Origin: a virus
Reading direction: 5' to 3' (one strand)
Virus record (IMG/VR): IMGVR_UViG_3300037246_001230
Location: 1-27,491 of that record
DNA: 27,491 bases
Numbering within the stretch: position 1 is the stretch's first letter; the number at the start of each line of letters is the position of its first letter. The position numbers and the translations under genes are program-made. This document shows, piece after piece, positions 11,504 through 27,218 of this stretch. The notes under the pieces were generated by a model. The model ran no database searches, was not told where the DNA came from, and was given only the letters and a program-made list of their open reading frames with translations.

Positions 11504-14290
11504 GTGGCGCGGATCTTCCGCATATCAACCGGGCCATCCCGGTTGTCAACCCGCTTGAAGCGGCGCAAGGTGTCGTGGGCGAAGCTCGCGACCAAGCTGC
11601 AAACCTATCACCAGATCGACCACACCTTCGAGCAGTACATGGCGTTCGATCGCGAGCGGCAGGCGCAGCTCAAGGACGTAGGCTATTACATTGGTGGCTG
11701 GTTCAAAGGATCGAAGCGGCTACAGTCTGAAATGACCCGGCGCTCGCTGATCACGTTGGACGCTGACCATTTGGATTCGTGGGATATCGACGCCGTGATC
11801 GACGCCTATAAGGATTATGAGTTCGTCGCGCATTCGACCATGAAGCACAGCCCTGACACCCCGCGGCTGCGCATCGTATTTCCACTTAGCCAGGACATTA
11901 AGCCAGCTCAGTATGAGCCGGTATCCCGCGCGCTGGCGAACTGGCTCGGCATGGACTGTTATGACGACACCACATTCCAGCCGGCGCGCATCATGTTCTG
12001 GCCGGCAGTAACGGCAGACGGTGAGATCTGGAAGCACCACAACGAGGGTGAACCGGTCAACCCTGAAATGCTACTCGAGCTGTACGACGACTGGCAGGAC
12101 TTCGGTGAGTGGCCGCACTCCAAACGCGTCGATAAGCTGCGGCCCGCAGCTCGGGAAGCGGAAGACCCGCTCACCAAACCCGGCATCATTGGCGCATTCA
12201 ACCGGACATTTGATATTCACGCTGCAATCGCGAGGTTTGAGCTGCCTTATGAAACAACCGACTTTGATAACCGTTATCGACCCTTTAACGCTACGGGGCC
12301 ATCGGGCGCTGTTGTATATGACGACGTTTTCCTCTACTCACACCATGAATCTGATGTGGTTGGACACCAGAATGTCAATGCGTGGGATCTCGTCCGCATT
12401 CACAAGTTTGCGGATGAGGACGCACACCTTAGTGGGGCCGAAGAAACGCCGATGATGAAGCGGCCATCATCGAAGCAGATGATGGCGCTGGCGATGAACG
12501 TACCGGAAGTGGCGTATGAGCTGCGCTACGGTGAGCTGTCCGACCTCGATGCAAGCGAGGCCCGACCCTCGGCATCCCCTACTCCAACAAAGGCAAACCC
12601 ATCGAAAGACGAAACCGTAAAGCCGGACCTCACGTTCAAGAGCCTACTCGGTGAGACTTCTGCGATCAACGCCGAAACGCCGAACCTGCACGAAGTTCTG
12701 GATGCCATGCTCCCCCGGATTGCTGCGGCCCGGCTCGACCCGCACGAAGTCGGCATTCTTGCCGGGGCGCTCAAAGAGAAATACCCAAAACCAGCACCAA
12801 CTAAAGGCGATCTGCTCGGCACCATCAAGCGATCTGGCGAACGACTGATCGCGGGAACCCCCGAAGGCGGCATTGTCGATATCCAGCAGGAACTTATTCA
12901 GGCTGTGCTCGATGAGCATTTCAAGGGCGGCAAAACCGTGCGGCGTGTCGCTAATCGGTATTGGACGTATGAGCGTGGCCTGTGGGCGCTGATCGAAAAC
13001 GAATCCGTCAAGGGTTCAATCGTCAAAACTTTGTCCCGGCTGCGCACCGAACGGCCCGAAGATAAGCTCGCCCTGGTGGCCGCTGTTGGCGAGTCCCAAA
13101 CCAGCACTCTGTCAAATTCCCTGTCCGATATGCAGTCCTCGATCCTTGCGGAACGAGCCGACCGTGACGATCCGCTCGGCCTTATGCGGACGTATCCGCT
13201 GCCGATCATTAACTGTCTGAACTGCGAGCTGCACTTCAATCGCAAAGGCAAGATGAAACGCAAAAAGCACAACCCGGAAAACTTCTTCACCATTCGCGTC
13301 GGCACCGAATACGACCCGGATGCCGAATGTCCTGAGTGGGATCGCTTCAACGGGATTGTGTGGGCTAAGTCCAGTGATCCCGAGGACATGCAGCGTCACC
13401 TCGAAGAACTCGGTGGCTACATCATCCAAATGTCACGCTGGCTCAAGACCTGGGTGCTGTTTCACGGCCCAAAAGATACCGGCAAATCCACCGTCGCAGA
13501 AGTCCTGAAATTGATGCTCGGCACAGCATTCCTCGGGCAGTCCCTCGGTAGATTCGATGAAAGAACGGCAAATAACTTTGCTGAACAAGACCTGATCGGC
13601 AAGCTGGCGATCATCGACGACGACTTCTCCCAAAAAGGCTCGATACCGGACGGGTTCATCAAGAAAGTGTCCGAAGAAAAGTCTATGACCATCCCCATTA
13701 AATTCGGCACATCAGTACAGGCTGTGACTCGGGCGCTGCCCATGATCCTCGCGAATCACTTCCCTCAAACCAGCGATATCTCCGATGCCCTGTCCGAACG
13801 CGCTCTGGTGTTCCCCTTCCACCATCGAATCGCCGGCGCAGATAAAGACGATGCCAGGCGAGCCAAGATGTTCGATGAGCTGCCCGGCATCTTCGTCCGC
13901 TTCGTCGCCGGGCTGCGCCGGCTCCGTAAACGCGGCGATTGGGATATCCCGCTCGACTGCCGTGATGCCCATGACCAATGGCTGATTCACGCTAATACCC
14001 TGAATGCCTTCAAAGAAGAATGCCTCTTTGCCGATCCCGAATCGCGAGTCGAACCGAAACATCTGTGGGAAGTTTATCAACAATGGCTGATCGACAATTC
14101 CTCTACAAAAGGCTCAATTCACGGCCTTAAAAAACCCGAACTCTACACTCGACTCGACGGCCTTCTCGACACAGAACGTGATTCAATCGGCGGTAATTTG
14201 AAGGCTTGGAAAGGCTGGCGACTCCATAATCCGAAGATTGATGAAGTGGAAGTAATTTCGGAAAGTGAGTGGGATGATTCTGATGATTGA
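11504..14290 (+). CDS. Bifunctional primase-SF3 helicase (D5-like)
   Basis: 928 aa, the replicative primase-helicase. The N-terminal archaeo-eukaryotic-type primase region shows LITLDADHLD (D86, D88, motif I), VAHSTMKHSPDTPRLRIVFP (motif II with His110) and DTTFQPARIMFWPA (motif III, ~155-168). A Pro/Ala-rich linker (~350-375) follows, then a D5_N-like region (TYPLPIINCLNCELHFNRKG). The SF3 helicase core has Walker A HGPKDTGKST (~653-662), Walker B LAIIDDDFSQ (~700) and motif C LPMILANHF with a downstream Arg in SERALVFPF. The C-terminus is acidic (SEWDDSDD), possibly for contacts with partner proteins. It starts with GTG at 11504, 3 nt after the previous stop. It is the last gene before the AT-rich inverted-repeat region. 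Confidence 0.93.
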   Translation: MARIFRISTGPSRLSTRLKRRKVSWAKLATKLQTYHQIDHTFEQYMAFDRERQAQLKDVGYYIGGWFKGSKRLQSEMTRRSLITLDADHLDSWDIDAVIDAYKDYEFVAHSTMKHSPDTPRLRIVFPLSQDIKPAQYEPVSRALANWLGMDCYDDTTFQPARIMFWPAVTADGEIWKHHNEGEPVNPEMLLELYDDWQDFGEWPHSKRVDKLRPAAREAEDPLTKPGIIGAFNRTFDIHAAIARFELPYETTDFDNRYRPFNATGPSGAVVYDDVFLYSHHESDVVGHQNVNAWDLVRIHKFADEDAHLSGAEETPMMKRPSSKQMMALAMNVPEVAYELRYGELSDLDASEARPSASPTPTKANPSKDETVKPDLTFKSLLGETSAINAETPNLHEVLDAMLPRIAAARLDPHEVGILAGALKEKYPKPAPTKGDLLGTIKRSGERLIAGTPEGGIVDIQQELIQAVLDEHFKGGKTVRRVANRYWTYERGLWALIENESVKGSIVKTLSRLRTERPEDKLALVAAVGESQTSTLSNSLSDMQSSILAERADRDDPLGLMRTYPLPIINCLNCELHFNRKGKMKRKKHNPENFFTIRVGTEYDPDAECPEWDRFNGIVWAKSSDPEDMQRHLEELGGYIIQMSRWLKTWVLFHGPKDTGKSTVAEVLKLMLGTAFLGQSLGRFDERTANNFAEQDLIGKLAIIDDDFSQKGSIPDGFIKKVSEEKSMTIPIKFGTSVQAVTRALPMILANHFPQTSDISDALSERALVFPFHHRIAGADKDDARRAKMFDELPGIFVRFVAGLRRLRKRGDWDIPLDCRDAHDQWLIHANTLNAFKEECLFADPESRVEPKHLWEVYQQWLIDNSSTKGSIHGLKKPELYTRLDGLLDTERDSIGGNLKAWKGWRLHNPKIDEVEVISESEWDDSDD

Positions 14291-14543
14291 AAATTTTGTT
14301 GTCTGGTTTTCCGAAAAACTTGGAAAGACAGCAACGGCGACTGCCCCCGGTACGCATAAGTTGTTGATTTTTGAATTTAGGGTGAGTTAAGTGAGTCGTT
14401 TCTCTATTGTGAAAGAAAATGAGATTGTGTGTGTATCTAAAAAAATAAATATATAGGCAAAAAGGGAATGTAAGTACAATGGCAAAACGACTCACTTAAC
14501 TCACTTAACTAACTTCCGAAAATCTCGGAAAATGGAGCAAAGC
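14291..14543. other. AT-rich non-coding region with long inverted repeat, candidate replication origin
   Basis: About 250 nt without a credible gene, lying just after the primase-helicase. A perfect 20-bp inverted repeat has arms at 14382-14401 and 14485-14504 around an 83-nt AT-rich spacer that includes an A-run and ATAAATATATAG. The unit CTCACTTAA occurs twice in tandem at 14491-14508 and once, inverted, in the left arm. A small TTCCG/CGGAA hairpin lies just before the next gene. Inverted repeats plus short iterons plus AT-rich DNA beside a replication initiator/primase gene is the usual look of a phage origin. That function is inference. Confidence 0.55.
14382..14504. repeat. Perfect 20-bp inverted repeat with 9-bp iterons
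   Basis: The left arm (14382-14401) begins GTGAGTTAAGTGAGT and the right arm (14485-14504) begins AAACGACTCACTTAA; all 20 positions pair. The spacer is 83 nt. Within the right arm and beyond, CTCACTTAA is repeated head to tail (14491-14499, 14500-14508). No T-tract follows either arm, so it is not an ordinary intrinsic terminator. Confidence 0.85.
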
Positions 14544-14801
14544 ATGGCTGCTTTTGGACAACAACCGCCTCGAAATTTCACAAATAAAGTAGATATTTTC
14601 AAATCAGCAGAAGAATACCGGCGACGAACGAGCGAGTCGGATCTCGGCAAGTTAACAGCATTTGAAGCGTTGACGTTAGCCCTTCGAGAAGCACATGGCG
14701 ACCTCACGCAGCAAGATCGTGATGCGCAAGATGAAAATATCTTCGGGTTTGCTGAGTACCTGGGTGCCGCGATCAGGGATAGAGAATATCCTGGCGTTTA
14801 G
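14544..14801 (+). CDS. Small helical protein of unknown function
   Basis: 85 aa from ATG at 14544, which has GGAG 6 nt upstream; ATG at 14532 is the alternative. The sequence is charged and helical (VDIFKSAEEYRRRTSESDLG, LTAFEALTLALREAHG, GFAEYLGAAIRDREYP). No family recognised. It is the last plus-strand gene of this block and meets the minus-strand accessory operon tail to tail, with the two stop codons overlapping (TAG at 14799-14801 and TAA at 14800-14798), so there is no intergenic terminator. Confidence 0.6.
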   Translation: MAAFGQQPPRNFTNKVDIFKSAEEYRRRTSESDLGKLTAFEALTLALREAHGDLTQQDRDAQDENIFGFAEYLGAAIRDREYPGV

Positions 14802-15007
14802 GTGTACAGCACCAGCCAGTCCCGAAGTCGCATCTTTGATGCTTTCAGTTCGGCGAGCAGAGCGCCCCATTCGGCAACCGTCCATTCGCGTTGACCATTT
14901 GCAGCCAGCTCGAGTATTTCTTCCGAGATCCAATCATCACGGTTAATGGCGCGTCGGACCAGCAGATGCCCGTAGTCGGACAACTGCTGGTCAGGACACC
15001 CAATCAT
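14798..15007 (-). CDS. Small protein, last gene of the accessory operon
   Basis: 69 aa from ATG at 15007, set by an ATGA overlap with the upstream zinc-finger gene. It contains LSDYGHLLVRRAINRDDWIS and WTVAEWGALLAELKAS, amphipathic helices rich in Trp and Leu. No catalytic motif and no recognised family. It overlaps the stop of the convergent plus-strand gene by 4 nt. Confidence 0.65.
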   Translation of the reverse strand: MIGCPDQQLSDYGHLLVRRAINRDDWISEEILELAANGQREWTVAEWGALLAELKASKMRLRDWLVLYT

Positions 15008-15192
15008 GTCAGTCTCGGCTGACGGCACTTGGGGAAACTGTCGCTGTCCCTGCCGGGATCGACGCCGCTACCGTGGCAGCGTGGACAGAACCCAAAGCGT
15101 GTCCCAATAGCGGTCAGCCCATCACCGTGACAACGGTTGCAGGGATCGTCGCAAATGTCGAAGTCGTTTTTGTCGTCGCGTTTGAGATCCAT
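15004..15192 (-). CDS. DnaJ-type zinc-finger small protein
   Basis: 62 aa from ATG at 15192 (TAATG overlap with the upstream gene); a longer frame to 15297 overlaps that gene and is rejected. It has two CxxCxGxG motifs, PCNRCHGDG (C18, C21) and CPRCHGSG (C36, C39), separated by GLTAIGTRFGF, which together make one zinc centre as in the DnaJ Cys-rich domain. There is no J domain, so it is not a co-chaperone; free-standing versions may bind zinc and partner proteins or RNA. Confidence 0.78.
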   Translation of the reverse strand: MDLKRDDKNDFDICDDPCNRCHGDGLTAIGTRFGFCPRCHGSGVDPGRDSDSFPKCRQPRLT

Positions 15193-24793: not shown

Positions 24794-27218
24794 CGACCAA
24801 AATCAAGGCAATTACAACCCGGAGTACATGGAAACTGCGCCGGCAGACAATCGCGAAGGCAATCGCGATTTCGAGTTTGAAGAAGATCCCGCGCACCCGA
24901 CTTCTCCTTCAGCCCCGCCCCGCCCTCAAGATCGTGGTGATCCCTACTCCCGATTGCCACAGGATCTACCACCAGGCGAAACCCCGTCAAGTTCCAGCGC
25001 CGGTTCGCGGGAAATGCTGGATGGTAGTGGCGGTCCGGATTCTTCCGATGCCGAAGGCGAAACAATGTCGTTCGTCGGTACAGAAGGCTGGCTGATCTCG
25101 AAAGCGCATGAGATCTATACCACATCGACAGACTACCTCGATGCCAACATCACGAATATTTGGGAAGTCAATCTGGCGCATTTCAATAACGAACACGCGC
25201 CAGCCACGAAGTTTAGGACGCAAAATTGGAAACGCTCAAAGGTTTTCCGTCCTAAAACTCGCTCAATGACGAAATCGTCGGAGGCCGCGCTCACCAATGC
25301 GATGTTCTCGACCACCGATGTAGTGGACATTCAGCCAGAAGACGAAATAGATCCTAAACAAATCGCGTCGGCGGCAGTCAACAAGGAAATCCTACAATAT
25401 CGACTTGATCGGAAAATGCCCTGGTATCAGACTGTCATCGGCGCGTTTCAATCAACAAAGGTCTATGGCCTGACGATCTCATTCCAGTATTGGGATTATC
25501 ACGAAGACACCGATATCGTGCCAGAGATTGGCCTCGATGGCGGGATGCTCATGGACGAAGAAGGTTTTGCGCTCGGCCGTGAGCAGACCATCGTGCGGCG
25601 CGACGACTTGCGCTGCGATCTGGTGGCGCCAGAGAATTTCAGATTCGATCCGATGTGCGACTGGCGCGATCCCGCGACCACATCGCCTTACCTTCTCTAC
25701 ATGATGCCGGTGTATGCCGTTACTGCACTGGAAAACATGGAGAAGATTGACAACAAGACCGGGCAACCGGTCTGGAAAAGACACGCCCTGGGCGATCTGT
25801 TAGCGACCCGGCGTAAGAACTACGACCGAACGCGTCAGGCGCGTGAGGGCCGCGAGCGGATCGACCCGGCCGATGAGCAGCACGGCAATTCGTACACGAT
25901 GCTGTGGGCGCACATGAACATCGTCAACATCAATGGCGAGGACATGCTGTACTGGACAATGGGAACGGAGTTATTGCTCACCGATCCGGTCCCGCTCAAT
26001 CAGGCATTCCCGCATCTACAGCGCGGTGAGCGGCCGTTCACGGTTGGTTTCTCAACCATTGAAGCATTCCGAAATTACCCTGCCGGCGACGTAGAACAAG
26101 CCAGCGGACTGCAGCAAGAGATCAACCTTGTTGCGAATCAACGCCTCGATAACGTCAAACTGGTACTCAACAAAAGATATTATGTGAAACGTGGCTCCCA
26201 AGTTGACCTCGATGCGTTGATTCGCAATGTTTCCGGTGGCGGCGTGATGATGAACGATCCTGAAAAGGACGTTAAAACCATCGACACGCGTGATGTGACT
26301 GGATCGTCTTATCAGGAGCAGGACCGTTTGTCCGTCGAACTCGATGAGTTGACCGGGACATTCTCGCAAACGTCGGTTCAGTCCAACCAGAATCTTAATG
26401 AAACTGTTGGCGGCATGGAGGCCATGCAATCTGGTGCTGGCGCTGTGCAGGATTACGGTCTGCGGATCTTCTTTGAGACTTGGGCTGAACCGACCCTGCG
26501 TCAGCTCGTTCGCTTGATCCAGTATTACGAGACTGATCAGACCATCCTCGCGCTGGCACAAAAGAAGGCCGAACTCTGGCAAAAATTTGGTATTGACGAG
26601 GTGACTGACGAATTGCTGCGGCAAGAACTGACCGTGCGCGTCAACGTAGGCATGGGTAACACGGATCCGCAGCGCCGGGTCGAAAAGCTCATGTTTGCCG
26701 TGAAGAATGCTGCCGGTCTGCCGAAGATGGCCGAGCGCATGAAGTCCGAAGACATTGCCGACGAGATTTTCGGCACTCTCGGATACAAAAATGCAGTTCG
26801 ATTCTTCCGTAACGATCAGGAGCAGAAAGCCTACGAGCAGGAAAACCCGCCGCAGCCGCCGCCTGAGATCAAGTTGCAGCAGGAAGAACTCAAGATGCAC
26901 ACGAAGGACAACGAAGCGCGGCATCAGCGTGAGGTGATGAAGCTCGAAATGGAAGCTCAGACACGCTTTGCCAAACTGGCGCTCGAGAAAAATATGAAGT
27001 TCAATGAAATGATGCAGCAGCTTGGCCTCGCTCAGAAGAAGGACGCCACTGCTGCTGAACAAGCCGCACGGAAAGACGCTATGGCCGAGCGGAAGGATGC
27101 TACTGCGACTGAAATTGCCTTTAGGCAAGACAGAACCACACGACAAGGCAAGGCGCTGGACAATGTAGTCCACCTGAAAGAAATGCAATTACGTCGCGAC
27201 ACCGGGGCGGGAGTTTAG
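24786..27218 (+). CDS. Portal protein (podovirus-like)
   Basis: 810 aa. A disordered acidic, Pro/Ser-rich N-terminus (~1-95) precedes a portal core with [44 protein letters not shown]-like helices, [18 protein letters not shown], and the long wing/stem/crown region containing [37 protein letters not shown] and [11 protein letters not shown]. This is typical of large podoviral portals. The C-terminal ~125 residues are Gln/Lys/Glu/Ala-rich ([20 protein letters not shown] onward) and should form the long helical barrel that contacts packaged DNA. A dodecameric ring at the capsid vertex is the family role. It directly follows the terminase block. A 378-aa minus-strand frame within it is a shadow. 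Confidence 0.9.

Follow-up and report, generated by a model that had tools for sequence, protein, structure and literature searches.

Inward-facing pairs of 9-bp units form a candidate replication origin beside a phage primase-helicase gene, in a layout that recurs next to P4/D5-family helicase genes

The window analyzed here, an IMG/VR record of 27,491 bases, carries shortly downstream of its primase-helicase gene two oppositely oriented sets of 9-bp units around an AT-rich spacer, and its sequence leads us to think that this element is very probably a replication origin bound by the adjacent primase-helicase. The anatomy of the element, the positional enrichment of its layout, its likeness to characterized origins and a linked exchange of units and helicase C-termini are direct observations. 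An origin or initiator-binding region had been proposed here in the initial annotation, and this is the best supported reading, since relatives keep the architecture despite changed arm sequence, characterized origins of homologous initiators share the layout, and the layout is enriched at this position. The element provides a concrete candidate origin for a group of uncultured phages.

The inverted repeat was found as it had first been described, with perfect 20-nt arms at 14382–14401 (left, + strand) and 14485–14504 (right, − strand); the stop codon of the primase-helicase reading frame lies 91 nt upstream of the left arm, which bears out the adjacency that had been claimed. The arms enclose an 83-nt spacer (14402–14484), the presumed melting region, whose AT-richness was likewise correctly noted (29% GC versus 53% across the window). 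The tandem 9-bp units are also real, with two in each arm and inverted copies opposite, all facing the spacer: GTGAGTTAA (L1, 14382–14390) and GTGAGTCGT (L2, 14391–14399) on the + strand, and on the − strand GTGAGTCGT (R2, 14487–14495) and GTGAGTTAA (R1, 14496–14504), followed at 14505–14513 by a degenerate third unit recognizable in the sequence, GTTAGTTAA, also on the − strand. The two iteron sets are thus oppositely oriented, with two units on + and two perfect plus one degenerate on −. The unit CTCACTTAA named in the initial annotation is the opposite strand of the same 9-bp period; the unit core is GTGAGT, and four GTGAGT units occur in 9-bp steps. At 90% identity the inverted repeat lengthens to 29 nt. 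When inverted repeats of at least 16 nt with arms within 300 nt were counted, the window held two, and the element at 14382–14504 is the stronger; the other lies in the portal gene (26131–26149 and 26209–26227; 19 nt, 95%, 59-nt spacer). The arm core is single-copy within the record, and the exact 20-mer of tandem units had no match in IMG/VR. Cumulative GC skew, proposed earlier as a check on an origin here, reaches its minimum near 18–19 kb and not at the element, and is uninformative on a 27-kb fragment.

Around the element, direct repeats of TTCCGAAAA lie on the + strand at 14309–14326 and 14514–14531. Such repeats also flank the element in two relatives, at +29/+213 from the stop codon in L003 and at +19/+222 in L005, and similar TCCGAAAAA repeats surround the element of Achromobacter phage AchV4 (L008, 6656–6681 and 6875–6900). 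An 89-aa ORF without a Pfam or PHROG match (14532–14801) directly follows the candidate origin and is absent from that place in L003 and L005. The element sits between converging blocks, the rightward primase-helicase on one side and leftward genes ending at 14798 on the other. Phage genes in the window encode DNA polymerase A, an SNF2 helicase, a DUF2800 protein, a ssDNA-binding protein, a terminase and an SU10-type portal.

Absence of the repeat from close relatives with the same replication genes had been named at the outset as grounds for giving up the origin reading. L003 and L004, which are identical to each other here and whose primase-helicases share 81% protein identity with that of the window, carry at the corresponding position an inverted repeat built of GTGATGTTT units, and L005 (73% protein identity) has one there with GTGAGTnnn units; the outer flanks are similar among all of these, and the arm sequence differs. 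The nearest relatives do have the element. L044 (45% identity) also has it, but in L006 and L012 (44–46% identity) none is seen immediately downstream of the gene. When L006 was read by eye, an apparent minus-strand HNH-endonuclease frame was seen at the expected place of the origin (about 2130–2620). The spacer motif GTACnnACATTCCC (in 14402–14484 of the window) is flipped relative to L003 and L005, as an inversion of the spacer between the arms would produce.

The primase-helicase gene (11504–14290, + strand), which encodes the presumed initiator, specifies a protein of 928 aa with a P4-family (D5/SF3) helicase domain at residues 587–866 and an N-terminus that matches phage primase families only, where a pRN1-type replication protein would have an archaeo-eukaryotic primase. 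A C-terminal winged helix, the presumed reader of the units, is predicted at about residues 831–913 (13994–14242, + strand). The full-length AlphaFold model was poor (mean pLDDT 54) and its N-terminal fold unreadable, so the C-terminal part alone was used; there, pLDDT is about 77–86 over most of the winged-helix region, and Foldseek gave weak matches to the C-termini of ASFV PrimPol and to RFX winged helices (best E-value 0.03). A sequence search of the PDB with the primase-helicase gave no match.

Recurrence of the layout was measured with a strict motif: two copies of a 6-mer at a lag of 7–11, followed 25–170 nt later by two copies of its reverse complement at the same lag. In the 500 nt that follow the stop codons of P4/D5 helicase genes, 17 of 73 non-redundant loci had it, whereas it turned up in none of 1460 shuffles and at one of 430 control ORF ends; the lag was 9 at 15 of those 17. 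The motif was framed after part of this set had been inspected, so the weight rests on the comparison with shuffles and control ORF ends and on how the motif is distributed by position. A second set, from bacterial genomes, had the motif within 500 nt after the stop at 3 of 27 loci (controls: 0/1350 shuffles, 2/103 ORF ends), and at four further loci it began upstream of the stop codon, within the final 250 nt of the ORF. At L211, L212, L214 and L215 the iteron palindrome begins inside the 3' end of the helicase ORF. When the non-redundant loci were pooled and scanned up to 4 kb either side, 28 of 102 had the motif between −250 and +500 from the stop, and three had one outside that interval. 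The 9-bp register (lag 9) is found at 20 of the 28. At all 26 loci measured, the spacer has a higher AT content than the gene (mean 39% versus 56% GC). The 28 loci are an underestimate, as several with visible imperfect units fail the strict test; among the 74 of 102 that fail, imperfect units or contig ends account for some, and others may truly lack the element. A second IMG/VR scan, with a family-wide alignment, was left out, its hits being mostly the same contigs.

The linkers between the shared 6-mers were used to weigh repetition of units against pairing of arms. Outside the 6-mer, mirrored units agree in 77% (outer) and 49% (inner) of cases, whereas tandem and crossed comparisons give 33–39%; on the loop-side flank, agreement is 46%, versus 30% when shifted. 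Mirror agreement exceeds tandem agreement, and the arms are therefore iteron arrays and palindromes at once. Linker identity shows both symmetries, and a pure-iteron and a pure-hairpin reading were both rejected. The mirror symmetry could have arisen from an inverted duplication retained by descent. By analogy, arms with both symmetries fit pRN1, where the stem-loop must be intact, and the dyad may allow the arms to pair into a hairpin, which in pRN1 is apparently needed. At the site of SCCmec Cch2, inverted repeats are dispensable for binding (PMC7581432).

Which part of the protein might read the units is suggested by Streptococcus prophages, whose helicase proteins are mostly 97–100% identical up to residue 700. 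Two unit classes, GTTACG and GTTACC, occur among these near-identical prophages, and all 15 fixed amino-acid differences between the classes fall in residues 758–792 of 794; the last 37 residues, in which the class differences lie, are a putative recognition helix and wing. Two more diverged prophages, L056 and L087, share the GTTACC units and, for the most part, the residues that accompany them. DNA identity between prophages is mostly 90–100% on both sides but falls to 46–82% near the stop codon, a dip confined to about 150 nt before and 250 nt after it. In the window protein, the region that matches the fixed differences is the predicted winged helix. Because the change of units is accompanied by fixed differences at the C-terminus, we consider the C-terminal winged helix the probable reader of the units; since helix and origin are adjacent, the joint exchange may also be hitchhiking, with the end of the gene and the origin swapped as one block.

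These findings are consistent with a mechanism in which the C-terminal winged helix of the primase-helicase would bind the 9-bp units, and the two inward-facing unit pairs would seat the protein on both arms. Two SF3 helicase hexamers could then assemble and melt the AT-rich spacer for priming of both strands by the fused primase domain; we infer each of these steps, from unit binding through two-hexamer loading and spacer melting to bidirectional initiation. With somewhat better than even confidence, we extend this to a single architecture of inward unit pairs, an approximately 9-bp register and an AT-rich melting region that would serve P4/D5-family SF3 initiators in many tailed phages, satellites and an archaeal plasmid, and in which recognition helix, wing and adjacent units would form an exchangeable specificity cassette, so that one short recombination could switch origin specificity. 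A simple rule would locate such origins beside P4/D5-family helicase genes, and how these initiators choose their DNA can be approached directly through the joint exchange of helix and units.

An inverted repeat between converging gene blocks might instead act as a structured RNA or bidirectional terminator, the palindrome stopping or stabilizing both the rightward primase-helicase transcript and that of the leftward block. Both strands of the element do fold far better than shuffled sequence (z = −8.8 for + and −7.6 for −, with 0/200 shuffles equally stable), and the structured transcript that the initial annotation had offered as its alternative is kept alive because mirror symmetry between the arms goes further than repeated units would demand (77%/49% versus 33–39% in tandem). 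It is nevertheless weaker than the origin reading, and we regard it as improbable: no intrinsic-terminator site was found in 14382–14504, where the loop is far too long and no T run follows the stem, no Rfam family was matched, and the same layout occurs between same-direction genes in Streptococcus phages. The terminator of pRN1 is a separate neighboring hairpin, and a dispensable one (PMC4234260). Pairing would, moreover, leave unexplained both the fixed 9-bp register and the link to the helicase C-terminus.

Inverted tandem units are common in operators too, and the fragment of this phage is incomplete, so other origins are possible; the element could then be an operator or copy-control site through which the primase-helicase or another phage regulator controls replication or late transcription, with replication starting elsewhere. 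We judge this very improbable, as no sigma-70-like promoter was found in 14200–15100, and an origin is indicated by the position directly downstream of the initiator gene, by the AT-rich spacer and by the counterparts in pRN1, Sfi21 and PICIs. The reversed GTACnnACATTCCC motif in the spacer and the TTCCGAAAA repeats on both flanks would suit a structure that plays no part in replication, either the remnant or end of a small mobile element or a site of recombination. The element is, however, single-copy in the record, its arm sequence varies among relatives while place and layout are kept, and the enrichment is beside P4-family helicase genes only, all of which makes this explanation extremely improbable. 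A replication origin remains our preferred reading.

The origin layout itself is already known from an archaeal plasmid and from phage satellites, where such origins have proved functional; the common 9-bp register and the joint exchange of helix and units seem to be unreported in the open-access papers that were searched, although the original SaPI and Sfi21 origin studies may describe parts of them. PICI origins have two iteron sets round an AT-rich region 3' of rep (PMC6092414), and the window likewise has opposed iteron sets with an AT-rich middle directly 3' of a rep-like helicase gene; iteron recognition by the Rep C-terminus, as in PICIs and SaPIs, receives indirect support here from the linked Streptococcus exchange. 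A PICI is a satellite that relies on a helper phage for its particles, whereas the window has terminase and portal genes of its own, and its gene content marks it as a tailed phage with a PICI-like layout at its candidate origin. For Cch2, a D5-type helicase of SCCmec, the direct repeats to which its C-terminal domain binds lie 3' of the helicase gene itself (PMC7581432); the repeats of the window are also directly 3' of a helicase gene, C-terminal binding being known for Cch2. Unlike the window, PICI/SaPI and SCCmec Cch2 belong to satellites and cassettes, not to a tailed phage.

Among phages, Streptococcus phage Sfi21 (NC_000872) has a 302-bp annotated origin in the region after its TIGR01613 primase, and TTAGTTAC occurs there twice, inverted; the element is reported to be phage-inhibitory, origin-like and activated by infection (PMC6356513). 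It resembles that of the window in lying directly after a P4-family primase gene and in its inverted tandem-unit pairs round an AT-rich stretch, but its register is 8 bp. The crr of P4, like our element, is directly 3' of a helicase gene (alpha) and has type 1 repeats with a lag of 9 on the + strand and of 18 on the − strand; it differs in being a duplicated 120-bp repeat and in that P4 has a separate ori elsewhere, and alpha, unlike the pRN1-type protein, has a bacterial-type primase domain. A stem-loop was also proposed by the pRN1 authors in Bordetella phage BIP-1 (PMC4234260), and we find TTGCCTCGT twice, inverted, in the near-identical BPP-1.

The comparison extends to pRN1 of Sulfolobus islandicus, in which replication requires a 100-bp stem-loop 3' of orf904, and this stem-loop suffices when combined with the replication operon (PMC4234260). 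pRN1 is an archaeal plasmid of unrelated sequence, and its origin was tested functionally, that of the window being a candidate. Its authors described the origin as lacking the iteron structure typical of plasmids (PMC4234260); nevertheless, one arm of the pRN1 stem (L118) holds TGTCCATAG TGTCCAACT, with an inverted copy in the other arm and an AT-rich loop between, a 9-bp register that was found here and goes unmentioned by those authors. The pRN1 and window proteins are homologous across helicase and C-terminus, and each system pairs an SF3 helicase bearing a C-terminal winged helix (predicted in the window) with a large stem-loop, which in the window has 20-nt arms and an 83-nt loop, shortly 3' of the replication-protein gene (54 bp in pRN1, 91 nt in the window). 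Both palindromes are about 100–120 bp long, with a perfect stem of 21 bp in pRN1 and 20 bp in the window and an AT-rich loop of 58 and 83 nt, respectively. Finally, in the pRN1 family the flanks are conserved and the stem-loop is divergent (PMC4234260), and the family of the window behaves in the same way, its flanks being kept while the stem-loop diverges, with a 9-bp tandem unit in each arm in both.
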